Shown in pieces: positions 29,774 through 46,787 of a stretch of DNA of 64,000 nucleotides; the stretch's first letter is position 1; each line of letters opens with the position of its first letter. Location of the stretch: positions 62,001 to 126,000 of the forward strand of contig NZ_JVVM01000033.1 in assembly GCF_001054325.1 (NCBI RefSeq), in the 5' to 3' direction. The position numbers and the translations under genes were made by a program. A model generated the notes under the pieces. It was not told the origin of the DNA. It saw only the letters and a list, made by a program, of their open reading frames with translations, and did no database searches. The DNA comes from Corynebacterium vitaeruminis. Lineage in GTDB: Bacteria; Actinomycetota; Actinomycetes; Mycobacteriales; Mycobacteriaceae.

Positions 29774-30109
29774 CTATTCCGCAATGGCGCGCATTTCGAC
29801 TGCCTGCGCGCACGCCTCCGAGGCTTCGTGGGCTAAGTTGATGGCCTCTTGCTCGTCTTCTACCTCGATGATCCAGAACCCCGAGGGGAAAGTCATCGCG
29901 TTGTAATACGGCAAATCGCTGTGCGAACCATCCGGTAGCACCGTCATGGCCTGCTCCGGCGGCACTAACCCGCCGGCCATAACCCAGTGGCCTTCGTCCT
30001 GGAGCTTCTGATTGAAGCGTCCAACGCGATCAAAGGCAGCGTGCATTTCCTCATCAGAGTCATACGCGTTGATATCTCTGCGGCCATGAACCGTGAAAAA
30101 GTACTGCAC
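29774..30109 (-). CDS. YciI family protein
   Basis: 111 residues: a YCII-like domain with KLQDEGHWVMAGGL and PFxxGFWIIEVEDEQEA-like C-terminus (FPSGFWIIEVEDEQEAI). The His in the DEGHW region and the dimeric ferredoxin-like fold are typical of the family, whose biochemical role is mostly unknown. It stands alone, convergent to the SDR, 9 bases away. Confidence 0.85.
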   Translation of the reverse strand: MQYFFTVHGRRDINAYDSDEEMHAAFDRVGRFNQKLQDEGHWVMAGGLVPPEQAMTVLPDGSHSDLPYYNAMTFPSGFWIIEVEDEQEAINLAHEASEACAQAVEMRAIAE

Positions 30110-30246
30110 ACCAAGCTCCTGGGTTTCGTTTTGCTAAGTGTAACAGATTAGGTGGGGTTGGACCCGGGATGTTTTGGAGAATTTTGGCTTTGGTTGCTGT
30201 TTACCCCCTTGACCGGGGTGGTACTACAGACGGTACTATCAAAGGT

Positions 30247-30412
30247 GTGGGGGACAAAATAGAAAAAGCGCGGGGGCGATCATGAAACATACAAAACACC
30301 GTGGCGCAGCGACCCTCGAGTCAACATTCAAAACCGAAATGGGAAAGCAAAGCCCTACCAGGTCAATCAAGTACTAGCCGCCGTCGACAAACTTCTACTC
30401 GAAGGAAAATAA
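30247..30412 (+). pseudogene. frameshifted remnant of a small toxin-like gene (HicA-like) before hicB
   Basis: The frame from GTG 30247 (VGDKIEKARG) stops after 12 codons. Removing one G from the run of five at 30272-30276 joins it to a frame reading GDHETYKTPW... and ending in VLAAVDKLLLEGK at TAA 30410-30412, two bases before hicB. The GDHE motif and the position directly before hicB recall HicA toxins, but the rest is not a clear match. No intact hicA is visible, so the toxin is either broken or not of the standard type. Confidence 0.3.
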
Positions 30413-30414
30413 CA

Positions 30415-30750
30415 ATGTCTTATCCTGCTGAAAAGTACACCTACCAGGTCTTCTGGTCAGAACCTGATCAAGAATATGTGGCGACGGTACTGGAGTTTCC
30501 TTCACTGTCGTGGGTAGCTGAAAACTCGTCGGAAGCGGAACAAAAACTTCGAGACCTCGTTACTGAGGTTCTTATGGATATGGAAGCCTCCGATGAAGCA
30601 GTCCCAGAGCCCTTCGGTCACCGTTCCTACTCGGGGCGATTCAACGTCCGAATCCCCAGTTCACTGCACCGGAAACTGGCAATGGCAGCTGCCCGCGAAG
30701 GAGTCTCGCTCAACGCTTACATAGCGCAGACACTCGCAGGCGCTGCATAG
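30415..30750 (+). CDS. hicB: HicB-type antitoxin
   Basis: 111 residues, start ATG 30415 with AAGGA at 402-406. The N-terminal half (YQVFWSEPDQEYVATVLEFPSL, broken here as YQVFWSEPDQEYVATV) has the HicB partial RNase H fold, with WVAENSSEAEQKL behind it. The C-terminal part (RFNVRIPSSLHRKLAMAA, LNAYIAQTLA) is a ribbon-helix-helix DNA-binding domain. HicB neutralises HicA and represses its operon. Here the upstream toxin frame appears broken, so this may be an orphan antitoxin. Confidence 0.8.
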   Translation: MSYPAEKYTYQVFWSEPDQEYVATVLEFPSLSWVAENSSEAEQKLRDLVTEVLMDMEASDEAVPEPFGHRSYSGRFNVRIPSSLHRKLAMAAAREGVSLNAYIAQTLAGAA

Positions 30751-30788
30751 GTTTTGATTGGGCGTTTTGCGGGCAGGACCTAGTTTTC

Positions 30789-31280
30789 CTATTTCGCCAT
30801 TTCCTGTTTCACAGCGGCGGCTCGCTGTGCCCTGATCTCCGCTACCTGCTGCTTGCGGGTATTGAACCCCATGCGCCACGGGGCGGCTAGGCCTGACTCG
30901 GGGGCATGCGGGTTATCGCGCCAAGATTTTCCCTCGTTATAGGCCTGCGCGCCCTCACGGTATGCGGCGGACTGCTCGGCAAAGGTTGGGTACGGCTGTT
31001 CAGCAGCCTGCCTGTCCTGCGCACCGACAGCTTTCATTTTCGCGCGCAGTTCCTTGATTTTGTCCTGAATCTTGTTGTTGTAGCGTTCCTGCTGCTCTGC
31101 AATATCGACGAGTGCCTGCTGCTCGGTGATGGGGTCGAACGAGTCTTGGCCTGCCTTGTCGTAGGCTTCCTTAGCGCGCGGGGTGCGCTCCCAATCACGC
31201 AAAGACGGGTTATAAACGCACCAATCTTCCTGGCCGTCGTCTTTGTAGATACTGCCGTTGTGATCCCAGTACTTCGTCAT
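30789..31280 (-). CDS. small hydrophilic protein with an RMF-like C-terminal motif
   Basis: 163 residues, AGGAG before ATG 31280. The middle is a charged coiled-coil-like stretch (EQQERYNNKIQDKIKELRAK). The C-terminal part YREGAQAYNEGKSWRDNPH...PWRMGF follows the GxxAxxxG...NP...WxxGF pattern of the ribosome modulation factor family. A ribosome or nucleic-acid role is only suggested. Its promoter region overlaps the CRISPR trailer flank. Confidence 0.6.
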   Translation of the reverse strand: MTKYWDHNGSIYKDDGQEDWCVYNPSLRDWERTPRAKEAYDKAGQDSFDPITEQQALVDIAEQQERYNNKIQDKIKELRAKMKAVGAQDRQAAEQPYPTFAEQSAAYREGAQAYNEGKSWRDNPHAPESGLAAPWRMGFNTRKQQVAEIRAQRAAAVKQEMAK

Positions 31281-31297
31281 GCGTTTACTCTCCTGAG

Positions 31298-31347
31298 TGT
31301 TTCTGTGGGGATAATATCCCCCTCATGATTAAACCGGAACATCCCCG
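31298..31347 (+). repeat. CRISPR trailer flank, left copy of a ~50-bp direct repeat
   Basis: This stretch (TGTTTCTGTGGGGATAA..., then CCCCTCATGATTAAACC, then the first bases of CRISPR repeat 1) aligns over about 50 bases with 42164-42214 in the same orientation. Most of the differences are C/T transitions, plus one single-base indel. It also contains the palindrome GGGGATAATATCCCC. Confidence 0.8.
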
Positions 31348-33012
31348 TCCACGCGGGGAAAACCTTGACACAGCGCAGGAATTCGAGCGCATGGTGGGAA
31401 CATCCCCGCTCACGCGGGGAAAACATCCGATTGTCCTGGCTCTGCAGCAGCGTCCCGGGAACATCCCCGCTCGCGCGGGGAAAACTCGATGTAGGCGCGC
31501 ATAATGCCACCCTCAGCGGGAACATCCCCGCTCGCGCGGGGAAAACCTGCGACTGCCCAGAAATCGTTATCGTTCTCAAGGAACATCCCCGCTCGCGCGG
31601 GGAAAACTCCAGCCCACGGATATAAGGCAACGTCCCCCACGGAACATCCCCGCTCGCGCGGGGAAAACATGTACGCGGCAGGGCCGTACAACTGCCACAC
31701 CGGAACATCCCCGCTCGCGCGGGGAAAACCTGTTCCGTGTTGCTGCACGGGCAGGCCTTTTCTGGAACATCCCCGCTCGCGCGGGGAAAACGGGGTTTAT
31801 TGAGGAGCCAGCCGCGTCGGAGTAGGAACATCCCCGCTCGCGCGGGGAAAACTGGTTGGACAGCCACTCGGTTCTCACGCTCTCCGGAACATCCCCGCTC
31901 GCGCGGGGAAAACGCAGGTATTTATCGGCGAGCATCTGTTCCAATGGGAACATCCCCGCTCGCGCGGGGAAAACAGTAGGTCGCCGGGCATGGCTTTTCG
32001 GATGGTGGGAACATCCCCGCTCGCGCGGGGAAAACATGCGATTGACGCGTTCACCTCGCTGTCATCGAGGAACATCCCCGCTCGCGCGGGGAAAACTGGC
32101 TGATGTTTGGCGTTGCTTCCCTGCTCTGGGGAACATCCCCGCTCGCGCGGGGAAAACACGCCATCAATCAACCGCGCCCCAGCAAACTGCGGAACATCCC
32201 CGCTCGCGCGGGGAAAACCGACGAGATACGGGGCACCGTCAGCAATGGTGAGGAACATCCCCGCTCGCGCGGGGAAAACCGGATGCGGGACGGGGATGGG
32301 TTGATACCCCTGGGAACATCCCCGCTCGCGCGGGGAAAACGCTGTTGGTGGCGCGCTGAATGCGGTGCCGGAGGGAACATCCCCGCTCGCGCGGGGAAAA
32401 CCTATGGGTGTGTACAAGCGTCCGACCCGAAATAGGAACATCCCCGCTCGCGCGGGGAAAACGTGCCACTGTGGGCGCTAATGGACAGTTGGATGGGAAC
32501 ATCCCCGCTCGCGCGGGGAAAACGCGCCTTGGCTTGACTGTGGTTCCCCTGCTTGCGGAACATCCCCGCTCGCGCGGGGAAAACCGCGGCATCATCGCCA
32601 GCGATAAGCCAGATACGGGAACATCCCCGCTCGCGCGGGGAAAACGCACGCAGACGCGACGCAATCTCCAAAGCTCCGGGAACATCCCCGCTCGCGCGGG
32701 GAAAACCATGGGTGGCTGATGGTGTCCGTGCTGCCGACAGGGAACATCCCCGCTCGCGCGGGGAAAACCAGCGCCACGCACCCCGATGGACAACAACACC
32801 AGGAACATCCCCGCTCGCGCGGGGAAAACGGCGTGATGGGCAGAAGCGGCAGACTCCGAGCAGGAACATCCCCGCTCGCGCGGGGAAAACCGGTTTCCGC
32901 TTCGTTGATCCATGACCCGAGGTGGAACATCCCCGCTCGCGCGGGGAAAACCAGATGTCTGCGCTGATCGTGGTGTGCGGGCCGGGAACATCCCCGCTCG
33001 CGCGGGGAAAAC
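31336..33012 (-). CRISPR. type I-E CRISPR array, 28 repeats and 27 spacers
   Basis: A 28-base repeat starting GGAACATCCCCGCTCGCG and ending CGGGGAAAAC (plus strand) recurs every 61 bases. Spacers are 33 bases except spacers 7 and 23, which are 34. All inner repeats are identical. The first at 31336 has three changes and the second at 31397 one change, marking the old trailer end. The array is therefore read on the minus strand from the leader next to cas2, where the repeat begins GTTTTCCCCGCGCGAGCG. All 27 spacers look unique. Open frames inside the array are artefacts. Confidence 0.99.
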
Positions 33013-33056
33013 ACTTCTTCACCAGCAAAATTCGGTTCCCAGTGAAGAATTTTATA
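33013..33056 (-). promoter_or_regulatory. very short CRISPR leader with an 8-bp inverted repeat
   Basis: Only 44 bases separate the cas2 stop codon from the first repeat. They are AT-rich and contain TTCTTCAC (33015-33022) and GTGAAGAA (33042-33049), a perfect inverted repeat. The leader function (array promoter and integrase recognition) must lie here or reach into cas2. Confidence 0.7.
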
Positions 33057-33422
33057 TTACTCAGAACGACGAGCGTGTCGAGCACGACGCCGTTTAGCTG
33101 GATTTGACCACCCAGGCTTTAATCCGACATCGCCTTTAGCCTCATTTTTGAACGGGCGCCGAATCAGGGACAGTCCTTCAACATCAACTACTTCCCACTC
33201 ATGCCGATGCACCTTGTAGGCATACCCTTGTTCGGCATTCCAATCCGGATAAACCATAATTGCACGACCGCTGCCGACCATTTCGATGACGAGTCCCCAC
33301 AAGATGTCACGGAGACGAGAGTTAACTTTCCCAACAAATACACCTGGGGAGATTTCCTCAAGCCATCGAGTTAAATGGCCCCGCAATCCGGCAGGACAGC
33401 TCGTCAAAACTATTGTCACCAT
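33057..33422 (-). CDS. cas2: CRISPR-associated endonuclease Cas2, type I-E
   Basis: 121 residues, somewhat longer than the usual Cas2e because of a basic tail (NPAKRRRARHARRSE). It starts MVTIVLTSCPAGLRGHLTRWL, split here as MVTIVLTSCPAGLRGHL, with SPGVFVGKVNSRLRD typical of Cas2e. It dimerises between Cas1 dimers for spacer integration. It overlaps cas1 by 7 bases, and its last codons lie next to the leader. Confidence 0.95.
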   Translation of the reverse strand: MVTIVLTSCPAGLRGHLTRWLEEISPGVFVGKVNSRLRDILWGLVIEMVGSGRAIMVYPDWNAEQGYAYKVHRHEWEVVDVEGLSLIRRPFKNEAKGDVGLKPGWSNPAKRRRARHARRSE

Positions 33423-34375
33423 GGTGGTTCTCCGGAGGAGTAGTTTGTACCACCTTTAATCGTGCCGCGGCTGTAATCCCACAACTCGATAACTTCGCCG
33501 AATTCCTCGTTTTCAAGAGGCTCTTTCATTAAGAGCTTTAGGTCCTTAACGCAGCGCGAAATAACTTTTTCTTCACGAATCCGATCACGCACATGTCGCC
33601 TAACCGTAGTGCTTAGTGTTTGAGTATCAACCTCGGTTCCAAGCTCAGAAACCACAGTAAAAGCAACTGGAATCGTTATGTCTGCCTTATACAAATCCGC
33701 AATGTCATAAACAAATGCGCGGTCGTGCCCCGTGTGCACAAACCCCAAGCCAGGACTCATTCCCAGGGAAACTATCACGGCATGCACGACACCGTACAGG
33801 CAAGAATGTGCTGCTGAGAGGGCCTGATTGATTGGCGTGCCATCCGAGAAATCGTCAGGGCGGTATTCACGGCGCGACCACTCAACCCCGGTTATCTTTG
33901 ACCATTCCCTATAAACCGAACGAACCCGAGCACCCTCTCGGCCCCGTAATTGCTGCATATTTAGGGATTCCACATCCTCACCGGAAAAACGCATCCCATA
34001 CATTTCACGCGCAACCGCTAGTCGGGTTTTTCGGTTGCTCACTAGCTTTGCCTGCTGTTCCAGAAGCCGGGTCGACCGACCTATCGGTCGGCCATGCGCG
34101 TAATATCGCACACCGTTTTCTCCCACCCAGACAATTGTCGAACCGGCATCTGCAATAACCACCATCGCCTGATGCGTAACCCGTGTACCAGGGCCCAACA
34201 TAAGCACTCCCAGTGCTGCACTGGGTATATGCATGACGCCCTGGTCGTCAGTCGCAGTGAGAGAATTAGAATCTCGACCGATGGTGCAGTGCTCAAGATA
34301 GAGAAAAGAAATCCGGTCTTCAGCCCTCGCCAATTCGATCGGTTTCGACGGACGCGCTCCTGGAATATTGGCCAT
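33416..34375 (-). CDS. cas1: CRISPR-associated integrase Cas1, type I-E
   Basis: 319 residues. The metal-binding catalytic residues are Glu147 (in LRGREGAR), His214 (GFVHTGHDRAF) and Asp224/Asp227 (VYDIADLYK). With Cas2 it inserts new spacers at the leader end of the array. It starts 2 bases behind cas6. Confidence 0.98.
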   Translation of the reverse strand: MANIPGARPSKPIELARAEDRISFLYLEHCTIGRDSNSLTATDDQGVMHIPSAALGVLMLGPGTRVTHQAMVVIADAGSTIVWVGENGVRYYAHGRPIGRSTRLLEQQAKLVSNRKTRLAVAREMYGMRFSGEDVESLNMQQLRGREGARVRSVYREWSKITGVEWSRREYRPDDFSDGTPINQALSAAHSCLYGVVHAVIVSLGMSPGLGFVHTGHDRAFVYDIADLYKADITIPVAFTVVSELGTEVDTQTLSTTVRRHVRDRIREEKVISRCVKDLKLLMKEPLENEEFGEVIELWDYSRGTIKGGTNYSSGEPPW

Positions 34376-34377
34376 GC

Positions 34378-35079
34378 CTAGTCACTTTTGGAAGTCATTG
34401 GAGCAACAGTCAGCAATCCACACCCATAGCCCTTTGCTTTGCCAATTCCGTTTGTCAAAACACGGCGGAATCTCTCAGCATCAGCTACCTCGATGGCTCC
34501 ATCGAACTGTGCCCGAGCGATCGTGACCATCCGTCCCTGCCTACGGAACTTCACTACTTCCCTACCTGTAACGGAAACAGCTAAATCATCATTGGAGGTG
34601 TCATGGCTATCTGCATGTGAAAACTCAGTCGGTAGAAATCGCACACCCATAACTTCAGCGCGTTCTAACAACCAATTTCGCTGTTGGGCTGCAGTTACAT
34701 GCGCAAGTCTCTTAGACTTACCCGTCTGAGGGTCACGCACTGACTTCACAGGATTCGCTGCCAACCTAAAACGAAATCGCTTTCCGACGGAAATACTTCC
34801 CAAGACCGGTTCGTATTCACGTATCGCCCACGATACTTGATTTTCCCAGCCTGCTTGCTGCTGTAGATGCTCAAATGATGGCTTTTCAGGACTCACCACG
34901 TACAGTGCAAGGGAATGGGCTTCCCGGTCAACTCGCCACAAAACACGACCATCATGGCTGACTAGGTCACTATTTGGCGGAAAAGCTGACAGCACTGCGG
35001 CATGCATGGCCTCTGGGCTGGCTAACAACTTACGAGTCCCCCGCCGTTGCGGATTGAGAAACATGCGTGAAAGGTACAT
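34378..35079 (-). CDS. cas6e: CRISPR RNA endoribonuclease Cas6e (CasE/Cse3)
   Basis: 233 residues. N-terminal MYLSRMFLNPQRRGTRKLL with His26 in SPEAMHAAVL, at the place of the catalytic His of Cse3. The C-terminal glycine-rich loop (GIGKAKGYGCGLL) binds RNA. It cuts the pre-crRNA at the repeat hairpin and stays in Cascade. Three bases separate it from cas5. Confidence 0.96.
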   Translation of the reverse strand: MYLSRMFLNPQRRGTRKLLASPEAMHAAVLSAFPPNSDLVSHDGRVLWRVDREAHSLALYVVSPEKPSFEHLQQQAGWENQVSWAIREYEPVLGSISVGKRFRFRLAANPVKSVRDPQTGKSKRLAHVTAAQQRNWLLERAEVMGVRFLPTEFSHADSHDTSNDDLAVSVTGREVVKFRRQGRMVTIARAQFDGAIEVADAERFRRVLTNGIGKAKGYGCGLLTVAPMTSKSD

Positions 35080-35082
35080 CGA

Positions 35083-35784
35083 CTAGTCACCTCCCAGCAA
35101 CGACATCGGATCGTGAGAAAACACAGGACGCTTTCCTTCTTTATTTTCAATCTCTAGCCATCCATGAACCACTGGTCGCATCTCGTGTTTTCGTTCTCGT
35201 GGATCAAAGCTGACTGGAGTATCCGGAATTAGCTCATCGTAGGTCTCACCATCACGCATATCTCTAACAATTGGCAGCGAAACTACTTCTGGCTGACGTT
35301 TCCGATACCAAGTCGATGCTTGCCAAGGAGCCTCACGCAGAGCGTCTTCCAGTGGCTTTTCCTCAATTCCTAGAACCATTCTTCCTGTCGGTTGGAATGC
35401 ACGGCGGCCTAAGTAGAGGGGGAAAGCTGGTCGCTGTACCGCGTCGGCAAGCCCTTCAAGGACGCTGCGTGGACCTTCAATTCCAACAATGAAGATGGCA
35501 TCAGTGAGGTAATCACGATACGTCAGGGGCTTGGATTTGTTGTTGCGCCAATCAATTTCAGTCTGGAAATCTCGCTCGACCTTTCCAATCTGATCAGTGC
35601 GAACACCAAAGCCGAGTGACGCCAAATCTTCAATCGCATCAGTACGGCGACGTCCGCTTGCAGCTGCAAGCAAACCCACTACCCCGCTTTTCGTCGGCTC
35701 TCTCCGAGTACCACGGTGATTGAATCGACTCGAGTCTCCCCATGCTTGCATAGGTCCAGCGAGCCTCAAGAGGAGAACCGACAT
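35083..35784 (-). CDS. cas5e: Cascade subunit Cas5e (CasD)
   Basis: 233 residues: LLLRLAGPMQAWGDSSRF at the N-terminus and EPTKSGVVGLLAAASGRRR, the typical Cas5e signature. It caps the 5' handle of the crRNA in Cascade. Its start codon overlaps the cas7 stop by one base. Confidence 0.96.
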   Translation of the reverse strand: MSVLLLRLAGPMQAWGDSSRFNHRGTRREPTKSGVVGLLAAASGRRRTDAIEDLASLGFGVRTDQIGKVERDFQTEIDWRNNKSKPLTYRDYLTDAIFIVGIEGPRSVLEGLADAVQRPAFPLYLGRRAFQPTGRMVLGIEEKPLEDALREAPWQASTWYRKRQPEVVSLPIVRDMRDGETYDELIPDTPVSFDPRERKHEMRPVVHGWLEIENKEGKRPVFSHDPMSLLGGD

Positions 35785-36905
35785 TAGAACTCAGCCTTCT
35801 CCATGACAGCCTGCTCAACTAAATTGACTAAACCAGCCATGTCAGTGCGATCGCCAAAGACATTCAACTTTTCCATTGCGGCTTCAGTAGCTGCGCCACC
35901 AGTGGCAAGGTATGCACCTCCGAGTGGATGAGAATCGTATGCACCGTCCTGCTCGGCGGCATACTCTGCCAGCTTGATGGATGCGTTTTCTGTGCGGCCA
36001 CGAGTGGCTTCCACTGGGTCTTCAAAAGCTTCTGACAGATTGACAGGCTGATCATCACGAACTTGAACCACGATCAAATCTGGTCGCGTTCGGTTAGCAA
36101 ACGTGTTCTGCTTACCAGTTGGCATCGAAAGCGCAAATGCCTTGAGTAGCGCACCAGCAGCTTCCGATGCCGCCTCCTTTGACCCCAAAGACTGAGCCAG
36201 TTCACTAGCGTTGACCGTTGCGTAACGGTACAGCGTAGACGAGGTGAACTCCACCGTGCCGATCATGCCAGCACCAGCGTTGTCCTCTGCTGCGTTGTCA
36301 TCAACCGCAGTGAAGTAGTCAAACTCTGTAACTGTCGGATGAACAGAAATAGCATGATTGAACTGGCACGTTGCATCAACATTGAGGTCTGGAGCATCAG
36401 CCAGCATGCGACCGAAGAGTGCAATGTCGACTGAATGCTCGTTATTTAATGCTTCCTTCGCTTCCTTCGCAGGAATTTTTGCGGGATCATCCTGGTACCG
36501 AATTGCCAGATCAGCTAGCGCTTTGATTTGCGCGCGGGACACAAAAAGCAGGTACTCAGTACGGATACGCGTATCTTCCTCGCCCTTCTTGGGCTTTGCC
36601 TGCTTCAGCTTTGTCTTCTGCAGAACACTGAGCGCTAAATGCTCAGCACTTTCTTCCAGCTCCGGAGCCTGCGAAATGATTTCCGCGGCAATCAATGACG
36701 GACTGAAGCGAGTACGCTGTCCCAACTTATCTAGGTCAAGTAAGTTCTCGAATTCCTTACGCGCTGCGCGCTTCCAAGCTTGGCTGGAAACTCGGGCCCG
36801 TCGTACACCGCCGTAGTTGGCAGTCTTTGGACTGCCGGTGTCATCTCGGTTGAGGTTTGATGGCGGAACAGTTTGGAGCGCGTGAATATCAATGTAGATG
36901 GTCAT
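35784..36905 (-). CDS. cas7e: Cascade backbone subunit Cas7e (CasC)
   Basis: 373 residues. N-terminal IDIHALQTVPPSNLNRDDTG and RARVSSQAWKRAAR are diagnostic of Cas7e (Cse4). Several copies wrap the crRNA spacer. AAAGG lies before the ATG. A 20-base gap separates it from cse2. Confidence 0.97.
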   Translation of the reverse strand: MTIYIDIHALQTVPPSNLNRDDTGSPKTANYGGVRRARVSSQAWKRAARKEFENLLDLDKLGQRTRFSPSLIAAEIISQAPELEESAEHLALSVLQKTKLKQAKPKKGEEDTRIRTEYLLFVSRAQIKALADLAIRYQDDPAKIPAKEAKEALNNEHSVDIALFGRMLADAPDLNVDATCQFNHAISVHPTVTEFDYFTAVDDNAAEDNAGAGMIGTVEFTSSTLYRYATVNASELAQSLGSKEAASEAAGALLKAFALSMPTGKQNTFANRTRPDLIVVQVRDDQPVNLSEAFEDPVEATRGRTENASIKLAEYAAEQDGAYDSHPLGGAYLATGGAATEAAMEKLNVFGDRTDMAGLVNLVEQAVMEKAEF

Positions 36906-36925
36906 GATGTGCCTTTCTGTTGTTA

Positions 36926-37549
36926 CTAGTTTTCTACTGCGCGGTCATGGTCATCGATTTCGGATTGCGGAACTCTGTTCATATCCCGGGCCCAACGAAG
37001 TCGCACACGGCGAGCTGAATCTGAATAGGTCAACGCCACCAAATCATTAGCCAACTGGCCGTAATCCATCGGAATGCTGTAACTCCTCAGCATCTGAATT
37101 AGTCCGCGTAAATGGTGAACCAACTCACCGGTTGTCTGTGCAGTAAGCACCGCGTTAAAGCGTCGCTCAATACCCTTTTTCTGGTTTTCACCTGCTACTT
37201 GATGAAGACGACAAATGGCCGTTCCGAATCCTTCGTTGGCCTTATGCATGGATTCACTTCTCGATTGCTGATGAAGTGCAAAAAATGCCAATGCAAGGTG
37301 CGCTGCAGTTTCATAGACGCCGGGTTCATCTCGAGGGCCTTCAAGCTCCGCCGGGAAAGAATTGAATACCTCTGACCACACCTGGGGCTGCTCTGCCAGC
37401 GGCGCGCTCAGTGAGCGGCGGAGCACTGCAAGCGAGGCACGAGCTTCCGAGGTTTCGTTGGCCAGACCGCCTGCTAAGCTTTGTGCTTTGCCGGCAACAA
37501 ACCTGTACAGCAGGGAGCTGCGCGACTGCGACTTATTCATATCTGCCAT
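36926..37549 (-). CDS. cse2: Cascade small subunit Cse2 (CasB)
   Basis: 207 residues, mostly helical, with the family pattern ARASLAVLRRSL at the N-terminus and RRFNAVLTAQTTGELVHHLRGLIQ, split here as RRFNAVLTAQ and LVHHLRGLIQML. It stabilises the R-loop in Cascade. Two bases separate it from cse1. Confidence 0.94.
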   Translation of the reverse strand: MADMNKSQSRSSLLYRFVAGKAQSLAGGLANETSEARASLAVLRRSLSAPLAEQPQVWSEVFNSFPAELEGPRDEPGVYETAAHLALAFFALHQQSRSESMHKANEGFGTAICRLHQVAGENQKKGIERRFNAVLTAQTTGELVHHLRGLIQMLRSYSIPMDYGQLANDLVALTYSDSARRVRLRWARDMNRVPQSEIDDHDRAVEN

Positions 37550-37551
37550 TG

Positions 37552-39186
37552 TTACTTAACTCTCTCTCCAGGATTTCGTTCTTCCGGCCGTGGCAGAACT
37601 TTTCCGAGACCTCGTCGGAACCACAGCTCAGCGTGCCCCACGTTGTACTGACGCTCATCAACCTCACGACCTGACCATGCGCTGTCGGGCACACCCGCTA
37701 TCAACTCTGCAGCCTTCGTGGTTGCTAAGTTCCGCAATTGATCGCTCCACAGCGCAAGATGACTATTTAGGTCTGTTTCTGGTGTGAGTCCATTAATCCA
37801 CTGGCGGAATACTGGGTCTACATCCGAGTAGAAGGACCCCTCTGCACTAAAGCCTGCAGCCCCGCGTTCGCCACCAGATGCAATGGCCAAATTATTGGCA
37901 AATTTTCGCAATTCGGCTGCTGTATCTTGTGTTCGGTTTGCGGCCAACAACACGAATTGGACGGTTTGTTTATCGGCAGCCAAAAGGGCAGGGAACGCCA
38001 GGTTGTCTGTTAATAGGCGGTTGTACGAAGCCATTTGAGGACCATATTCGTAACCAACCATCCGAAGACTCAACCGGTAATTCTGCGGCACAATGCCACT
38101 GCGACGACCTGTACGAGTCTTCAACGCTTCCATGACACCGGCGGGCTTTGAAACTGTTACTTCGCTACCAGTGCGCCCCTTGGTCGTATCAACGTCCGCT
38201 TCAGGTAGCACAGCCGAGAGTCCTCTCCAAAGCGCGCGATCAGGATTGATGGCCTTTGGCATGTAGATATCTTCTTTGGCCTTCTTCGATTGCGGCTCGC
38301 TATAACGCCATGGAGACATCATTTCGAGTGCATCTTGATACAGATAGTCCACCGGATCGCCATTGCAAACAAGTGCTCCGGTAACCATGCCATTTTCCAC
38401 ATGAAGACGGATACGTCGCTGTGGCCACGTCATAAGAGTGAGTTGGCCTTTTGGAAGCGGTTCGGCCGAGACTGCCGCTGTCGGAACCGGCAATTCCCAT
38501 ATAGGAGCACCGGCCCAGGCAGCGGGATTGTGATCAACGATATTTAGCAGCAGCGTTTCAAGGAGACTATGTCCTTCGAGTACGGTCCCGCCTAACCAGC
38601 CTGCCCAACCAATGCCAATGGGATAACCTTTCCCGCCTTTGACGCGAGGGTCACCGACTGCACCTGATTTAATTCCCGAGAAATCAAAGGCTAGGCAATG
38701 AACCAGCCAACGACCTGCTTCCGCCAATGGAAGTGGCTCAATTGCTGAGCGCCGGTAAAAGAGGTCACCTAGCTCTGGTGAGTCCGGAATAATTGCTTCA
38801 AGGCTCTTCCATTCCCCACTTTTTGTAGCCAACGAAGGAGTTTGCATGAAAGGGGCTTCCCGATCGAGCAAATCGAATCGGTGCGAATATTCATCCAAAT
38901 AGTTGTTAATCTGCTCTAACGGCAGCTTTTTGTCCTCCCATGCTGCCGCCCATTGTTTACGGTTTTCCTTGACATCTTCTCCAAAGTTGAATGCGCGATA
39001 AAGAACCGCAAGAGCCACCCGCAAAACCGCAAAATCCTGCGCTGGCGACTCACCAGAGATCCGTTTTAACTCACCAGCCTGCGCAAAGATATCTCGAAGG
39101 CCTAATTCCCGACCACTGCCATCGTGTCCCGTGACTTTAATCCAGGGCTCATCGAGCAGATTAAAACTCGGCTCAGCTCCGCTCAC
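37552..39186 (-). CDS. cse1: Cascade large subunit Cse1 (CasA)
   Basis: 544 residues. FNLLDEPWIKV near the N-terminus is the Cse1 signature, and a YPIGIGWAGWLGGTVLEG region and a C-terminal four-helix part follow. It recognises the PAM and recruits Cas3. It overlaps cas3 by 4 bases. Confidence 0.97.
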   Translation of the reverse strand: MSGAEPSFNLLDEPWIKVTGHDGSGRELGLRDIFAQAGELKRISGESPAQDFAVLRVALAVLYRAFNFGEDVKENRKQWAAAWEDKKLPLEQINNYLDEYSHRFDLLDREAPFMQTPSLATKSGEWKSLEAIIPDSPELGDLFYRRSAIEPLPLAEAGRWLVHCLAFDFSGIKSGAVGDPRVKGGKGYPIGIGWAGWLGGTVLEGHSLLETLLLNIVDHNPAAWAGAPIWELPVPTAAVSAEPLPKGQLTLMTWPQRRIRLHVENGMVTGALVCNGDPVDYLYQDALEMMSPWRYSEPQSKKAKEDIYMPKAINPDRALWRGLSAVLPEADVDTTKGRTGSEVTVSKPAGVMEALKTRTGRRSGIVPQNYRLSLRMVGYEYGPQMASYNRLLTDNLAFPALLAADKQTVQFVLLAANRTQDTAAELRKFANNLAIASGGERGAAGFSAEGSFYSDVDPVFRQWINGLTPETDLNSHLALWSDQLRNLATTKAAELIAGVPDSAWSGREVDERQYNVGHAELWFRRGLGKVLPRPEERNPGERVK

Positions 39187-41993
39187 TGCGACTCCTTTTC
39201 TCGAATGGACCGCAAACCATAGTTCATATCGTATGAAAAACTAACTTCGTTCACATGGCATTCCCCACTTTCATCCAAAGGGAATGGAAGAAGTCCCTTT
39301 AGCCAAGAGCTGAGTTGCCAAGAAGGGCTACCAAACCGCTCCAATTCAGCGATGAACTCGTCCACTCCCCCGACTTGCCAAAAAGGAAGCGAAATAGTGC
39401 ATTTGGCAACTTCACGTGCTAACTCGTCGTCAACTCCATTGGCATCACTCAGTGACTCACCACCGCGATTTTCCAGCCACGGCAATGAATAGAGTTCGCT
39501 GCCTCGCTGTTCCACAAGAACTACTTCGATTGACTCTTCGATGTCTCTGACCTGCGACTGTCCACGAAACTCTTCTTCCGACCCATGCCGGAACCACAGG
39601 CTCATCTCTTTTTCGTTTGGCGATGGACCGAGCGACCGTTGCGCTTTTTCAGCAAGCTTCTCTCCACTTTCTCGCTGCTCCTGCACCGCCGCATCCCAGT
39701 CTTCTCGCCAACTGACTGGACACTGTGCGTCTATGTCATACGTTTCACGAACTATCCCTGCGACATGATCTGGCGATATAAACTGCTTCCGCCCCATCAA
39801 AGCTGAAGCCGTCCGCATCAACAACGCAGTGCCATAAATCCGTTTACTACCGCTCACAAACTCTGGAGCATCGCTATCCCTAATCTCAGTGACCCCGAAG
39901 AGCACCAGTCGTGGCGCTTGAAGTCGCTCCGGACGGTTTTTACGGCCATGACGGTGGAGGCGACCCGCCCGCTGAATTAGCAAGTCCGAAGGCGCAAAAT
40001 CACTGAACATAATGTCAAAATCCAAGTCAAGAGACTGCTCGACAATTTGTGTTGACACCACTACTCCCCGTCGTGGACGCACACCAGACTTGCCATATTT
40101 GGCAACAAGTTCTTCTTCTTTAGCCCGTCGATCTGCCGCAGCGAAGCGTGAATGAAGCAAAAATACTTCCTCATCAGTGAAGCTGCCGTCAGCAAAAATT
40201 TCGTCGTAAAGCGTTTGGGCACGCTGAACTGTATTACACACGACTACAGCGCAACCGCCATCACGAAGCTCTTCCGTCAACATCGAAACTACAGATGAGT
40301 CGTCACAGTATTCGAGTGACACAACCTGTCTGCGAGAAGAAGCTTCTGGCTTACGGATAGATACGCCGTCAGCATTGACAAAGGTCAGAAGCGGATAAGC
40401 CCGTTCATCTTTGGCAACTTCCATCTCGCCAAGAATCTTGTTGGAAATTTGCGCATTTTCTAACTGTGCAATTCCCGAGGCGTAGGCCTCCATCAAATGA
40501 AAACGAGTATCCGGTGGAAGCGTTGCCGACAACGCAATGACTGGAACTCCATATGCACCACACCATTCCAATGCGCGGTACAAATACTGCTGCATGTAAA
40601 TGTCTGCAGCATGCACCTCATCGAGAATCAATACCTTTCCGGCAAGCCCCAGATGCCGCAACATGATGTGCTTCGACTGCAGCGCCGAGAAAAGGAACTG
40701 ATCGATTGTGCCAACAGTAAAGTCTGCCAGCGCTGCAGTTTTTCGAGATCGTAGCCACCAATGAGCCTCAACTGCAGGCTCTTTAGAATTGGCACCATAT
40801 TCTTCGTCATAAATAGCCGAAAAACTCTGTGACGGAAACTTAAGACCTTGGAATTCATCATTAAACTGCGCGCGACTATGTGTGAGCATCGCAGAGGCCA
40901 ACTGGTCTTCCGCAATCGCACGATCGAGCCACTTCAAAACACGAGAAAACATGGCATCTGATGTGGCGCATGTAGGCAACGCGACTTGCACACCACCACA
41001 GCCGAACTTGGCTGCAAATACTTCCGCGGCCGCAAGCGCAGCCTCCGTCTTGCCTTCACCAGTCGGTGCTTCCAACAGCAACAGACCTGGTTTATCCACT
41101 TCCTCAGCAAGTTTTACTGCGTCAAGCTGAACTGGGTATGGGGTGGCACCAGCGGGCAGGTCAAACCGAGCGCGAAATAGGTCATCCGCACTACTTTCCG
41201 GGCGAGGATCCCACGGATCAGGAAGATTTAACTTGTTGATTGCATCATCGCTTCTGTTTGTCGACGGTGCATCAGACATCGACAGGGGGAATAAATCAGT
41301 ATTCGAAGCAAGCCAGTCAGCCATGACCACAATGCCCGTCAGCAACATTTGCGTTGACGCTGACAGTCCTTGTTCTCGGCGTTGTTCAAAATAAGTCGCC
41401 GTTAAACCTGCCCTTGTGGCCATGACGTCGAAGAATTCAAAACGAATCTGTTGCCACTTTTCATCTTCGAGCTCCTCAACGAAATCTTCGGCAGAATGCA
41501 GCAGATTCTCATCGGGAAACTTGCCGTGATGGCCACCAATTGGTGCAACATATGTGTCGGCAGCATCTTCATCGAATCCATGGTTTTCCACCAACCAAAC
41601 CCACAATGTATATGCGCCGACAGCCCCGTGGGGTGCTCCACGTAATTCTTTGGAGGAAAGTGTTGTCGCAGCGCCTAGCCCATACGAGCACACTCGGTCA
41701 TACAGTTCGGGAACTTTGACGGAGAAAGAATACGATGCTTTCCCAATATCGTGACACCCAGCGTAAAAAGCCAACCATGCACGCGCCTGCCCCTTCGAGC
41801 CGAATTCATCGGTAAGTACTTGCCTTAGTGATTCCGGCAACCACTCATCCCAGAGATAAAAAGCCACATCCTGGGAATCATTTAAATGTTGCGCGAGACT
41901 CAACGCTTCTTCGCGTTGCCAATCCCATTTAGCCCACTGCAAGCGGGCTACTTCAGACAATGCATCTGCCAAGTTCGAGTCCATGTTCGACAT
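39183..41993 (-). CDS. cas3: CRISPR-associated nuclease-helicase Cas3
   Basis: 936 residues. The N-terminal HD nuclease has H81-D82 in GCHDIGKAS, H122, H155-H156 (GGHHGKF) and a likely metal Asp226. The helicase has Walker A PTGEGKT (310-316), DEVH (458-461), SATLPP and RAGRLHRHGR. It degrades DNA marked by Cascade. ATG 41993 follows GGACGGAG. It is the first gene of the eight-gene cas operon. Confidence 0.97.
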   Translation of the reverse strand: MSNMDSNLADALSEVARLQWAKWDWQREEALSLAQHLNDSQDVAFYLWDEWLPESLRQVLTDEFGSKGQARAWLAFYAGCHDIGKASYSFSVKVPELYDRVCSYGLGAATTLSSKELRGAPHGAVGAYTLWVWLVENHGFDEDAADTYVAPIGGHHGKFPDENLLHSAEDFVEELEDEKWQQIRFEFFDVMATRAGLTATYFEQRREQGLSASTQMLLTGIVVMADWLASNTDLFPLSMSDAPSTNRSDDAINKLNLPDPWDPRPESSADDLFRARFDLPAGATPYPVQLDAVKLAEEVDKPGLLLLEAPTGEGKTEAALAAAEVFAAKFGCGGVQVALPTCATSDAMFSRVLKWLDRAIAEDQLASAMLTHSRAQFNDEFQGLKFPSQSFSAIYDEEYGANSKEPAVEAHWWLRSRKTAALADFTVGTIDQFLFSALQSKHIMLRHLGLAGKVLILDEVHAADIYMQQYLYRALEWCGAYGVPVIALSATLPPDTRFHLMEAYASGIAQLENAQISNKILGEMEVAKDERAYPLLTFVNADGVSIRKPEASSRRQVVSLEYCDDSSVVSMLTEELRDGGCAVVVCNTVQRAQTLYDEIFADGSFTDEEVFLLHSRFAAADRRAKEEELVAKYGKSGVRPRRGVVVSTQIVEQSLDLDFDIMFSDFAPSDLLIQRAGRLHRHGRKNRPERLQAPRLVLFGVTEIRDSDAPEFVSGSKRIYGTALLMRTASALMGRKQFISPDHVAGIVRETYDIDAQCPVSWREDWDAAVQEQRESGEKLAEKAQRSLGPSPNEKEMSLWFRHGSEEEFRGQSQVRDIEESIEVVLVEQRGSELYSLPWLENRGGESLSDANGVDDELAREVAKCTISLPFWQVGGVDEFIAELERFGSPSWQLSSWLKGLLPFPLDESGECHVNEVSFSYDMNYGLRSIREKESQ

Positions 41994-42102
41994 AACGACT
42001 CCGTCCGGCCGAACCCTTATCCGGCCTCTGTTCTAATCTCGAAGATAACTCAGATATTAGTTTCATTCAACATGGAAAATACCCCCTTTGGTACCCCACA
42101 TA

Positions 42103-42125
42103 ATCAAATGTTCATATAATTTGAT
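42103..42125. promoter_or_regulatory. ATCAAAT...ATTTGAT dyad upstream of cas3
   Basis: A 7-bp inverted repeat with a 9-base centre in an AT-rich stretch about 110 bases before the cas3 start. It may be an operator of the cas operon or part of its promoter region. No cas regulator gene is in the window. Confidence 0.35.
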
Positions 42126-42153
42126 CGCTCTCTACAAGTGCAGCACAGACATA

Positions 42154-42230
42154 AGAAAATCCCCGCTTCCGCGGGGATAACATCGCCCCTCATAATCAAA
42201 TCGGAACATCCCCGCTCACACAGGGAACCC
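42154..42230 (+). repeat. degenerate CRISPR repeats and trailer flank, right copy of the direct repeat
   Basis: 42154-42181 matches the CRISPR repeat at 23 of 28 positions. 42203-42230 is another degraded repeat, starting GGAACATCCCCGCTCACA. The 21 bases between them (ending CCCCTCATAATCAAATC) match the trailer flank of the real array, not a spacer. The first unit also forms the hairpin ATCCCCGC/GCGGGGAT, which could terminate the PepSY gene. Confidence 0.8.
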
Positions 42231-42249
42231 GAGGGCGACAGAACCTACC

Positions 42250-43578
42250 CTAACCTCTCCGGAGCCTCCGCCAGGCCCAATCCACAATCACGAAGCCAAC
42301 GAGCGTCACACCGAACAGTGGCGCAGCCACTGAATACGCAATCAACAGCGCCACAACAGCCGCTGCAACACCCGGGCGAATATCCCGCCAGCGCGTCGGT
42401 GCCGGGAACCTGCCCGGACGACCACCACGACCGCGCCCAAACCACATGGCGTAGCCGCGCACAATCATCGCCAACAGAGCAACACCGATAAGCGCCAGGA
42501 CCAGCTGATTCACCCACCCGAACAGGATGCCCATGTGCGCGTTAATCAGCCACTCGGTCAGCTTCGCCGGCAGCGGCCAGTCTGCAAAGTGAATCCGATC
42601 GACCATCGCTCCGGTCGAGCCATCAACGGTGACGGTCTCAATGCCCATCCGCCATTCCTCACGGGCTTCCTTGGCTATCCACACCGTGCCAGCTTCCGGT
42701 GGAGTCAGCTCGACCTTCCCGGACAGGCCCTCGGCACGCGCGAGGTTCATAACACTATCTGCCTCTGACCAGTCATAATTCGCAGGGGCAGTCGCAGTCA
42801 CAGCTGGTTTCGGTGCGTACCAATCCATGGTCTCGCGTAGCTTTGCGATGCCCGTTCCAGCCACCCACGACCACGTCAAGCCAGTGACGGTCAGGAACAA
42901 AAGTCCAACACTAACTGCCACGCCAACATTCGCGTGACGACGCATATGATGCGCCCTCTTACTTGTTCCGTGTGTCCGCTTGCGGCGCGAACGGTCCCAC
43001 CAAAGCCAAAGGCCACCAATAGCCAGTGCACCCATCCAGGATGCTGCCGTTTCGGAGTATAGGCGACCAAAGTTGCTATCAATCCAGAGCCTGCGGTGCC
43101 CTTCCGAGATCCACGCCCGCAGTGGCAGCGCCGCCGAGGAGCCGTATTGCACCAGATCACCCTTGATGCTCAAGTCGCCTGGGTCGACAAACACCGCATG
43201 TCGGTAGGACTCCGACTTCAGCTGCTCATCGTTGAACATAACTCGCGTTGTCTGCCCCGGCTTTTCCGGGACCTGCACTGCGGTCACCGGCAGCTCAGGA
43301 TGCACGCGCTGCGCGACCTCAACCTGCTTTTCCAGAGGCTGTGCGGGAAGGCTTGAAGTTGCAGTTAGTTCTTCGTGGTAAACCACCTTTTCTATGCTCG
43401 GGGCGAGGGCATATGCCACGCCTGTGATAGCTGCAATAACGAGTAGCGGCGCAACGAGGATGCCTGCAACGACATGGATTCGGTGCAGTAATGCTCGTGG
43501 CCCACCATTTTTCTGAGTCTTTGCGACGGGGTTTGCGGCTGGTACTCCAGCGGCATCGCCTGTGGCTAGTGAAGTCAT
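42250..43578 (-). CDS. PepSY-associated transmembrane protein
   Basis: 442 residues with four or five membrane helices: one near residue 35-60 (HVVAGILVAPLLVIAAITGVAY, shortened here to IHVVAGILVAPLLVI), others near 185-200, 225-245 and 360-430, and two PepSY-type extracytoplasmic domains. The family is found with siderophore uptake or reductase systems. No iron box is evident before the start at 43578. It may ferry electrons or reduce iron or copper at the membrane. Confidence 0.85.
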   Translation of the reverse strand: MTSLATGDAAGVPAANPVAKTQKNGGPRALLHRIHVVAGILVAPLLVIAAITGVAYALAPSIEKVVYHEELTATSSLPAQPLEKQVEVAQRVHPELPVTAVQVPEKPGQTTRVMFNDEQLKSESYRHAVFVDPGDLSIKGDLVQYGSSAALPLRAWISEGHRRLWIDSNFGRLYSETAASWMGALAIGGLWLWWDRSRRKRTHGTSKRAHHMRRHANVGVAVSVGLLFLTVTGLTWSWVAGTGIAKLRETMDWYAPKPAVTATAPANYDWSEADSVMNLARAEGLSGKVELTPPEAGTVWIAKEAREEWRMGIETVTVDGSTGAMVDRIHFADWPLPAKLTEWLINAHMGILFGWVNQLVLALIGVALLAMIVRGYAMWFGRGRGGRPGRFPAPTRWRDIRPGVAAAVVALLIAYSVAAPLFGVTLVGFVIVDWAWRRLRRG

Positions 43579-43723
43579 GCTCTATTAGTCGGACGAACCG
43601 CCTCAGTTGTTCCCCAGCAAGCTCACTTTTATTAATTCCAGGGGTAACCATTTGGCCACGTGCCTCGTTGAAGGCCACCTCGTGCGCAACTATCCGTCGT
43701 AAAGCCCGCGTACCCTCGAACAC

Positions 43724-44761
43724 ATGGCTTATCCAGACGTGTACCACGCCAATGACAACCGCTATGAAACGATGCCATACAACCGCTCCGGCAACACCGG
43801 CCTGAAACTTCCAGCCATTACGCTGGGGCTTTGGCATAACTTTGGTGATGACCGGCCGCTCGAGACGCAGCGTGAGATCCTGCGCACCGCGTTCGACCAC
43901 GGCGTCACGCACTTTGATCTCGCCAACAATTACGGCCCACCGCAGGGTTCTGCGGAGGCAAACTTCGGTCGCATTATGGCCAAGGACTTCGCTCCCTACC
44001 GCGATGAAATGATCATTTCCTCCAAGGCCGGTTGGTACATGCAGGATGGTCCCTACGGCTTCGGCGGTTCGCGGAAGTACCTCGTGGCCAGCTGCGATGC
44101 CTCGCTGAAACGCATGGGCCTGGACTATGTGGACATTTTCTACCACCACCGCCCCGACCCGGATACGCCTATCGAGGAAACCGTCGCCGCCCTCGACTTC
44201 CTCGTCCGCTCGGGACGCGCGCTCTACGTCGGCGTGAGCTCCTACTCCCCCGAGCTGACTCGCCGTGCGCAGAAAATCGCCCGTGAGCTGGGCACTCCGC
44301 TGACTATTCACCAGCCGAGCTACTCCATGTTCAACCGTTGGATCGAGGACGAGCTGCTGGCAACCTGCGCCGACGAAGGCATGGGTGTCATCGCCTTTTC
44401 CGCGCTTGCGCAGGGGCTTCTCACCGACCGCTATCTGGATGGCGTGCCGGAGTCCTCGCGTCTCGGGGCGCACAAGATGAACTCGGGGTTCCTCAACGAC
44501 GACACGCTCACCGCCATCCGTGAGCTCAACGCCATTGCTTTACGACGAGGCCAGTCCCTGGCACAGATGGCCATCTCGTGGGTTCTTCGCCGTGACGAAG
44601 TGACCTCCGCCCTAATTGGGGCTTCGTCGGTGGAGCAGCTGAAAAACAGCCTCGGCGCCCTGGACGCTGCGCCGTTTAGCGATGAAGAACTCGCGGAGAT
44701 CGACAAGTGGGCCGTCGACCGCGGGATCAATCAGTGGCAGGGCGCTACGGAGTCTGTGTAG
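43724..44761 (+). CDS. aldo/keto reductase (YghZ/L-glyceraldehyde 3-phosphate reductase type)
   Basis: 345 residues. The AKR tetrad is visible: Asp in THFDLANNYG, Tyr in NNYGPP, Lys in ISSKAGW and His in FYHHRPD. The N-terminus YNRSGNTGLKLPAITLGLWHNFG, shortened here to SGNTGLKLPAITLGLWHNF, is typical of the YghZ/Kv-beta-like AKR14 group. It probably detoxifies aldehydes with NADPH. It is divergent from the PepSY gene. Confidence 0.92.
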   Translation: MAYPDVYHANDNRYETMPYNRSGNTGLKLPAITLGLWHNFGDDRPLETQREILRTAFDHGVTHFDLANNYGPPQGSAEANFGRIMAKDFAPYRDEMIISSKAGWYMQDGPYGFGGSRKYLVASCDASLKRMGLDYVDIFYHHRPDPDTPIEETVAALDFLVRSGRALYVGVSSYSPELTRRAQKIARELGTPLTIHQPSYSMFNRWIEDELLATCADEGMGVIAFSALAQGLLTDRYLDGVPESSRLGAHKMNSGFLNDDTLTAIRELNAIALRRGQSLAQMAISWVLRRDEVTSALIGASSVEQLKNSLGALDAAPFSDEELAEIDKWAVDRGINQWQGATESV

Positions 44762-44780: not shown

Positions 44781-46787
44781 TTAGGACACTTTTTGAGGGT
44801 CTCCCTCGATTTCTCTAATGATGAACTCGAGGTAGGCCTTCATAAAGCGGGTCGCGCTCTGCGCTTGTTCAGAACCTGGGCTAATAGATCGAACGACTCT
44901 GAAATCGGAGATAAAAGCATCGTTTGTGATGACTTCAACGTGAACCGAATCTCCATTTTGTGCACCACAGGGTAATGTCTCCATGATTTCAGACCCCACA
45001 ACCGAACAAATCTTTTCTTCCAGTGCCAGCTGGTTTGTCTGAACATTGTCGGACAAGAAATCTCCTCGACGCAGAGATGGATGATTGAAATTTAGCCAGT
45101 ACTTTCCAGTTCGTGGATAACGAAGATAGAAAACGCCATTACCACGGAGATTGATGCGATCTAAAAACTTCTGATTCAAACGAATCCGAATCCGACGAGG
45201 ACCATTTTCAACATAGAAGTATTTATCAAAGTCAGGAATCTCGCCAAAAACCTTCGCAAATTCATCAATCTGCTTCCTCGCGGCCATAGTTAGAGGCTTA
45301 TTTTCCTCAACGAAGGTCGCGTCCAGATTTTCAGCAGTTCGCTCAATGCCAATTCCAGTCTTTTCTCCCTTATTAGTTGAAGTCGCCTCTACTGCTGTTA
45401 GCCGAGCTAGTTGTACCACTTTTTCAAAGCTTTTATGCCACTGCTTAGCTGTAAGCTGAGTTGACCCCGAACCGTCGTAGTTTCTCAGCATGCTTAAAGC
45501 GTTTACTCCCGTATTGCCAATTGGGGCTAGCCATGGGTTCAAATCGCCCACAACTAATTCTTGATTGATTTCGTCGATGGTATCGCCGATTTCGGTGCCA
45601 TCATGGTCACCTTCTTCATCGTCGCTGTCATCAGTTTGAAGTACAAGTTGCAGCTTTGGTGGATTAGAATCGGACAAATCTTCAGTTATTTCATTAGCCA
45701 ACTTGAAGTCAGTGACCTGAATACACAGCAGCCAGTAAAGATAGAGCAAATCATCATCATTCTCGAATACCTTTGAAATATCACTACCGGAATGATTCGC
45801 ATTTTCCGTAATTAGCTTCAAAAGCAACATAGAGTTTGCCACGCGCTTAATCGAGCGGGGATTGGAAAATAGCAACTTCTGCGAGAGTTCAGCGAATTTA
45901 TCCGCATTCTTTAAAGTTCTTCTTTTCCCAGATTTTAGGTCCGCAAGCAGTGTCACAATCAGTGCTTCAATTTCGTTACCTGGAGAAGGGACATTAAAGG
46001 GAACCTGGATGATTTTATCGAAAAACTGCTTGGCTTTCGCTTCATCCATTGACTCACCATAGATTGCACGCGCACCCTTTTGCACGACGTCAAAATCAAT
46101 CGCTAGGATGAACACACAGTTCTCTGTCTCAAAGAACAGTTTGATAGTCTCCATAATTTGGACAGCACGAACTGGTGGCAAACGGTCTAAATCATCAACA
46201 AATATCGCGAACGTTTTAGTCCCAGAGATACTTTCTAAAGTTTCGGAAAATACCTCTTTGAAATCCTTCTGGAGTTCGCTCTGTCCCTGAAACGCTTCTT
46301 CTGTTAGATCGAATAGCGCCCCTGCTGCGACACTTAGCAAAGTTGAACTTGCGCTACCTTTGACCCCGCTATCCAACAAGAACTTCTCGGTATTTTTTCT
46401 TACAGTTGGGCTGATCGCACCAAGAACCCTTTTAACCTTATCTGGAACACTTTTCTTAATCTGGTCTTTTTGGAATTTTTGACTTACTCGAAATAGCTGT
46501 TGATATACTTCTGCCGCGAATGCTGCTGGAATGTCCTCCTCTGCTGCAATATGAGCAAACTTCCACGTTTCAATTTTTATCGATGTGACGTTGTCATCGT
46601 TTAACTCGTTCTGGACAAGCTGAATCATCGTAGATTTACCACTTCCCCAGCCCCCCTGAATTGCTAGGGTCATCGGCGTAGGACATGATTGGATAAATGA
46701 TGCTAAACCTTTTGCTTTATCAGTAAAGCTTAATAGATCTTTCTCCGCCGGAATATCTGTGCGTGCGATACTCAATAACTCAGACAT
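44781..46787 (-). CDS. KAP-family P-loop NTPase
   Basis: 668 residues. Walker A GGWGSGKST (45-53, Lys51) and the KAP Walker B motif VDDLDRLPP (Asp198-Asp201) are clear. KIETWKFAH between them is also family-typical. The usual membrane insert of KAP proteins is weak or absent here. The gene is visibly more AT-rich than its neighbours and has no operon partner, so lateral acquisition is likely. KAP NTPases occur in mobile and phage-defence settings; the function here is not known. Confidence 0.85.
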   Translation of the reverse strand: MSELLSIARTDIPAEKDLLSFTDKAKGLASFIQSCPTPMTLAIQGGWGSGKSTMIQLVQNELNDDNVTSIKIETWKFAHIAAEEDIPAAFAAEVYQQLFRVSQKFQKDQIKKSVPDKVKRVLGAISPTVRKNTEKFLLDSGVKGSASSTLLSVAAGALFDLTEEAFQGQSELQKDFKEVFSETLESISGTKTFAIFVDDLDRLPPVRAVQIMETIKLFFETENCVFILAIDFDVVQKGARAIYGESMDEAKAKQFFDKIIQVPFNVPSPGNEIEALIVTLLADLKSGKRRTLKNADKFAELSQKLLFSNPRSIKRVANSMLLLKLITENANHSGSDISKVFENDDDLLYLYWLLCIQVTDFKLANEITEDLSDSNPPKLQLVLQTDDSDDEEGDHDGTEIGDTIDEINQELVVGDLNPWLAPIGNTGVNALSMLRNYDGSGSTQLTAKQWHKSFEKVVQLARLTAVEATSTNKGEKTGIGIERTAENLDATFVEENKPLTMAARKQIDEFAKVFGEIPDFDKYFYVENGPRRIRIRLNQKFLDRINLRGNGVFYLRYPRTGKYWLNFNHPSLRRGDFLSDNVQTNQLALEEKICSVVGSEIMETLPCGAQNGDSVHVEVITNDAFISDFRVVRSISPGSEQAQSATRFMKAYLEFIIREIEGDPQKVS

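Follow-up and report, generated by a model that had tools for sequence, protein, structure and literature searches.

A probable CreR gene upstream of cas3 in a type I-E CRISPR-Cas locus of Corynebacterium, with a decaying sister copy at the end of the array

Among described elements, those closest in kind to the one considered here are the CreRs, the primary paper on which is Liu et al. 2023, and the CreA antitoxins of CreTA-type addiction modules. As two reviews describe it, a CreR is a crRNA-like RNA (crRNA, RNA of clustered regularly interspaced short palindromic repeats, CRISPR) that directs Cascade to the promoter of its own cas genes by partial complementarity, with no toxin gene involved (PMC12737573, PMC13131331). 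CreRs are reported to autorepress systems of types I-B, I-E and V-A through a partial match to the promoter (PMC13131331), and their control is cast as a model of crRNA competition (PMC12737573). In CreA genes the two repeats (psiR1 and psiR2) are divergent and the 5' handle is conserved (PMC8501985); of the two repeats, the first is the more degenerate (PMC9458426).

The locus to be compared with these systems lies in a 64,000-nucleotide stretch of Corynebacterium vitaeruminis DNA (contig NZ_JVVM01000033.1, positions 62,001 to 126,000 of the forward strand; hereafter the window), taken from a 2.49-Mb genome that we call G000. Family models identify the system as type I-E with Cascade genes; all features of the locus, including the genes flanking it, lie on the minus strand. 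Upstream of cas3 (39183..41993) stands a miniature CRISPR that is very probably a CreR, the cas-regulating guide-RNA gene of this type I-E system. The grounds for this assignment are present in the sequence itself: the anatomy of the element, the match of guide to target, an AA dinucleotide ahead of the target, the co-variation of guide and target between species, and the periodicity of their mismatches. Type I-E CreRs have already been described and the element would belong to that kind; unlike the described CreRs, it has a decaying sister at the distal end of the array, which is its unusual feature, and the location of its best target varies with the species, being either upstream of cas3 or between cas3 and cas8e. 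Among the literature matches listed, the best 15 to 20 of each search, no paper treats a CreR of Corynebacterium; in one search the term CreR is absent from all of the best 15 of 80 papers.

The element sits outside the array and beside the cas genes, and it consists of a degenerate repeat (psiR1, 42203..42230), a 21-nt pseudo-spacer, the predicted guide (42182..42202), and a second degenerate repeat (psiR2, 42154..42181). The last 8 nt of psiR1, the crRNA 5' handle, are those of the array repeat. The second repeat retains an intact, terminator-like hairpin of Cas6 type (42178-42159), with 8 pairs and a T-rich tail after it, and can thus act as Cas6 site and terminator alike. The 87-nt stretch of the element folds better than all 200 of its shuffles (z -3.26). 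An early scan based on hairpins proved too permissive, and the window's own element escaped it; an Rfam search of 30000-44000 found nothing.

The non-repeat 17 nt of the guide are present a third time at 42110-42094, with no repeat adjoining, a site that the first-pass annotation of this DNA had overlooked. This predicted CreR target (42094..42110) is identical to the guide at 15 of its 17 nt and has AA at 42112-42111, the place of a protospacer-adjacent motif (PAM). Positions 2-12 and 14-17 match and positions 1 and 13 differ, position 1 being the base that adjoins AA; over the seed, defined here as positions 2-6 and 8-12, the match is 10/10. The pattern TTTGATTATGNGGGG occurs without mismatch exactly twice in the G000 genome, at guide and at target, and within the window AA stands in front of the target only, the crRNA handle beside the guide only. 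The target lies 92 nt downstream of the guide, just upstream of cas3, with 100 nt between its end and the cas3 start. A putative cas3 promoter follows at 42042..42070 (TTGAAT at 42070-42065, 17 nt, TATCTT at 42047-42042). The match to the cas upstream region is, as in CreRs, a partial one, centered on the seed. Both putative hexamers are identical in G000 and in the two close relatives considered next.

The same arrangement is found in G005, whose cas3 is 99% identical, and in G083, whose cas3 is 92% identical. In G000 the guide reads GATTTGATTATG and the target CATTTGATTATG; in G083 they read GGTTTTATTGTG and CGTTTTATTGTG. The two guides differ at seed positions 2, 6 and 10, and the target has changed at the same three positions and to the same bases, no further seed position differing between the two genomes. 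The guide of G005 is that of G083.

Across the genus, 99 of 242 genomes have a cas3 match (E 1e-30). Twenty cas loci, comprising 18 of the genus together with one on a Gordonia contig and one in a Propionibacterium metagenome-assembled genome, were examined one by one, the target being sought in the cas3-upstream and cas3-cas8e regions; regular-expression matches inside cas3 (Propionibacterium, G204) were dismissed by eye. A repeat-guide-repeat stands near cas3 in 15 of the 20, with guides that differ by species. The best target matches the seed at 10/10 in 12 of these loci and at 9/10 in the other three, scores reached by shuffled guides in 6 and 130, respectively, of 3000 cases. AA precedes the best target in 13 of the 15, and the target lies upstream of cas3 in eight and between cas3 and cas8e in seven. 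When all guides are set against all loci in a 15 x 15 cross matrix, the sole off-diagonal 10/10 is the guide of G005 on G083, which share a guide.

An automatic scan then covered 95 cas3-upstream regions, 92 from genomes of the genus and the rest from three of four named records (L036 was not used). Seven of the 99 genomes, in which cas3 is partial or distant, were left out (G014, G070, G099, G132, G133, G189 and G240), and N-filled candidates were excluded after a false match in G159, a genome still counted by way of another candidate. Candidates were obtained in 59 regions. A seed match of at least 9/10 together with AA is seen in 47 of the 95, 36 of them at 10/10, and the distinct guides number 36; the Gordonia region reaches 10/10 without AA. 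Shuffles that had to show AA gave 10/10 in none and 9/10 in 3 of 2880 cases, as against 3 and 77 of 2880 when AA was not required. In 33 of the 36 distinct pairs, the guide lies on one strand and its target on the other.

Counted along positions 1 to 13, the 36 distinct guides show 25, 0, 0, 1, 0, 0, 25, 0, 0, 3, 1, 4 and 26 mismatches, with peaks at 1, 7 and 13 and hence a period of six. In type I-E Cascade, bases six and twelve (E. coli numbering) are flipped out, and positions 7 and 13 here presumably equal these two, so that the peaks fit this class of complex as expected. Positions 1, 7 and 13 had been set aside after the window match was seen and in view of data on E. coli Cascade; as a check on that choice, sites were also ranked blind to position and PAM. 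In the blind ranking, 13 or more of 18 positions matched in 44 genomes, of which 40 have AA, and the three peaks recurred over 30 distinct guides; shuffles reached at least 13 in 97 of 2880 cases, 10 of these with AA. One CreA pairs beside a PAM at guide positions 1-5 and 7-11 (PMC8501985); in the numbering used here, these would be positions 2-6 and 8-12.

The use of AA as a PAM was also sought among phage protospacers. Six phage matches were opened from 12, 26 and 208 matching records, and four could be used, all from array spacers of relatives. Of the other two, one was the phage mini-array described below, and one, between the array of the window itself and Mycobacterium phage Shandong1, falls partly in the repeat and was set aside. 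AA precedes two of the four protospacers, in Mycobacterium phage Mitti and Corynebacterium phage IME1320_01. The phage evidence for an AA PAM is thin, and the weight rests on the CreR targets.

On these grounds, transcription of the element, its processing by Cas6e, its loading into Cascade and the resulting repression are predicted as follows. A short RNA would run from 42230 to about 42150 on the minus strand, be cut by Cas6e and be loaded into Cascade. The guide would then direct Cascade to 42110-42094, beside the AA PAM and near the cas3 promoter, where the short pairing would permit binding but not cutting by Cas3, and bound Cascade would hinder cas3 and the cas operon from being transcribed. 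Were Cascade drawn off by anti-CRISPR proteins or by crRNAs of the array, cas expression would in turn rise.

Several observations weigh against this assignment. Of the two remaining phage protospacers, the one in Corynebacterium phage Dina follows AG, and the one in Gordonia phage Vendetta, which is a weak match, follows CA. Among the loci taken one by one, no element was found in G113, G121, G140, G204 and G208, and in two others the best site lacks AA, with GT in the PAM place in G217 and TA in Gordonia, where the second-best site, at 9/10, does have AA. The target in the window does not reach the putative -35 hexamer but stops 23 bp upstream of it, and the promoter itself, drawn from three genomes, was not reported by a consensus promoter scan. 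The G005 target has one seed mismatch, at position 10. The cas3 of that genome also contains an in-frame TGA at about codon 412, though guide and target are still largely matched, and the G005 system may therefore be decaying.

A further discrepancy lies in the automatic scan, where 48 of the 95 regions fall below threshold, 36 without a candidate and 12 with one. The one-by-one analysis places an element with a target of 9 to 10 of 10 in nine of these 48: seven have the target between cas3 and cas8e, G038 was lost at a filter, and Gordonia is without AA. Taken together, the two analyses find an element with such a target in 56 of the 95 regions, leaving 39 unexplained.

Attention had first been drawn to this locus by its two flanks. 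The first-pass annotation proposed that the trailer of the array recurs upstream of cas3, and this is borne out: the last array repeat and trailer align on the minus strand with the cas3-upstream sequence over 61 columns, with 50 identities, 10 mismatches and one single-base gap, and 42230-42203 and 42181-42154 are degenerate repeats, as it had said. Nor is the likeness that of the repeat palindrome alone. When the sequence from 31335 downwards was compared with the spacer and second repeat, this non-repeat flank scored 41, a value reached by none of 2000 shuffles, all of which scored 24 or less, and chance likeness was accordingly rejected. When the window was scanned on both strands in 70-base tiles, only the cas3-side copy, apart from the flank itself, gave the 40-base flank a score above 26. 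Homology extends to about 31301 and takes in the second repeat, of which a decayed copy is present (GATATTATCCCCACAGAA against GATGTTATCCCCGCGGAA).

The trailer (31301..31335) thus resembles an ordinary one in its position and in its decayed last repeat, but differs in that its non-repeat part is homologous to the guide and second repeat of CreR. It is probably an old sister copy of these. The trailer copies start GGTTTAATCATG in G000, GGTTTGATTATG in G005 and AGTTTGATTATG in G083, and their seed matches to the target of their own genome, counted by eye, are 7/10, 9/10 and 8/10; the corresponding figures for the CreR guide are 10/10, 9/10 and 10/10. The cas3-side copy hence tracks the target better than the trailer does in G000 and G083, with a tie in G005. 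A general link between trailer and CreR in the genus was considered and rejected. In three other loci, each with an array that ends within the stretch examined, the guide matches the 600 bases counted from the last exact copy of the array repeat no better than shuffles do, which were at least as good in 429 of 500 cases in G089, 473 in G179 and 433 in G217.

It might be supposed that the two copies, which bracket the whole system, enclose a cassette that recombination exchanges or removes, a view that is compatible with a CreR at one border and that we regard as rather unlikely. It draws on G006, which has no cas3 match. There the PepSY gene is followed by a copy of the first repeat and then by about 430 bp with a 66-codon frame, the product of which matches no family in Pfam, NCBIfam or PADLOC (E 0.001). 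On the other side come a second, diverged tail of PepSY, then a degenerate repeat and then the trailer, ahead of the 163-aa gene that adjoins the trailer in the window. One contig breaks off within the first codons of that gene and another opens with the rest of it, so that the join is one we infer.

Easy loss by recombination between the copies, as the first-pass annotation envisaged, is nonetheless not what the comparison suggests. The longest identical run between them is 13 bp, which is little for homologous recombination, and the two cas3-less relatives found, G006 and G195 (one genome per species), show neither the expected single-copy scar nor any recent excision through the copies. In G195, where PepSY is 88% identical and cas3 has no match, neither copy is present in the 700 bases read after the PepSY gene, after which, by eye, come genes related to the HicB-type and YCII-type ones of the window, and the 163-aa gene has no match. 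Neither the long, near-identical copies nor the single copy after loss that mark recombination-flanking repeats are seen, and excision from trailer to trailer was rejected as the principal account on the 13-bp identity and because G006 keeps both sides and G195 none.

What the relatives do suggest is that the copy pair probably predates the split of G000, G005, G083 and G006, and that at least one species, that of G006, has other cargo between the copies. An old duplication around a replaceable segment is possible. More tentatively still, the last unit of the array and CreR may be sister copies dating from the birth of the regulator: a duplicated repeat-spacer-repeat would have become a guide that tracks the cas3-upstream site, and its counterpart at the end of the array would be decaying. 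Since these borders enclose different cargo in a sister species without cas3, the flanks of the regulator may mark a site at which the whole immune system is gained or replaced.

A second alternative, which we consider distinctly improbable, is a CreTA-type addiction module, in which the guide would repress not cas3 but a small toxin RNA encoded between the element and cas3. CreA antitoxins share the anatomy of the element (PMC8501985), and a 7-codon reading frame does follow the target in the window. The ATG of this frame, however, is ATA in both G005 and G083, the target end and the cas3 start are 100 nt apart, and seven of the 15 loci have their best target between cas3 and cas8e. By eye, no small post-target frame keeps its ATG across the three relatives, RNA toxins being potentially tiny and no systematic search for tiny toxins having been made. 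The element differs from CreTA in that no toxin gene is recognized and that its target lies upstream of cas3 itself.

The first-pass annotation had itself taken the cas3-side copy for what is left of a second array collapsed to its trailer, or for a recombination scar, with no present function. Its case for common ancestry of the copies and a CRISPR origin of the cas3-side one stands, and the same site in G006, with both sides and different cargo, is in keeping with it; as a dead trailer, though, the copy is very improbable. It is a repeat-spacer-repeat with a PAM-flanked match upstream of cas3; one would expect a dead remnant neither to retain such a site, co-varying between species, nor to lie near cas3 genus-wide with species-specific guides. 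Two similar short sequences upstream of one gene might also suggest a pair of operators bound by an ordinary regulator protein, but for spacer and target this is scarcely credible given that AA in the window is confined to the target and the crRNA handle to the guide, that guides are species-specific, that mismatches have a period of six, and that 33 of 36 distinct pairs are on opposite strands.

Minus-strand gene order runs from cas3, which overlaps cas8e (cse1, 37552..39186) by four bases, through cse2 (36926..37549), cas7e (35784..36905), cas5e (35083..35784), cas6e (34378..35079), cas1e (33416..34375) and cas2e (33057..33422) to the array of 28-nt repeats (31336..33012), the cas2-adjoining side of which is 33012 and the distal end 31336. 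CreR has as its neighbor a PepSY-TM protein gene (42250..43578). Beside the trailer, the 163-aa gene (30789..31280) encodes a product with no family in Pfam, NCBIfam or PADLOC (E 0.001); it is matched in 5 of the 242 genomes, in G063 only partially, and G006 is one of the four with a long match, yet lacks a cas3 match. TATTAT followed by AGGAG stands ahead of its start, in trailer sequence at 31290-31316, and the array end may thus carry the promoter of this gene. Further along the window (44781-46787), a 668-aa protein matches the PADLOC models PDC-S20, PifA and QatA (best E 5.4e-37); it may be an NTPase of the KAP type and belong to a further defense system near the CRISPR locus.

A related observation was made in a phage. 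Corynebacterium phage StAB (MK937613.1) has, at about 22473-22643 between genes 23 and 24, an unannotated mini-CRISPR-like element in which three degenerate repeats of I-E type and two spacers can be made out by eye; 12 records of Corynebacterium phages match at least 99% of a 161-base query taken from it. It could be a guide RNA of the phage. As a mimic of CreR it finds no support: neither of its guides matches the 95 cas3-upstream regions better than shuffles do, and the 242 genomes, when searched with a pattern taken from the second guide, do not contain that pattern.

Read in this way, an apparent scar becomes a predicted autorepression circuit. The guide/target pairs of the genus amount to a natural record of a guide RNA and a promoter evolving together, and they recover, independently, the six-base rhythm with which type I-E systems read their targets. 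Because its repeats are degenerate, such an element is easily overlooked, and cas operons in the genus may be misread, either as lacking regulation or as preceded by a dead array.

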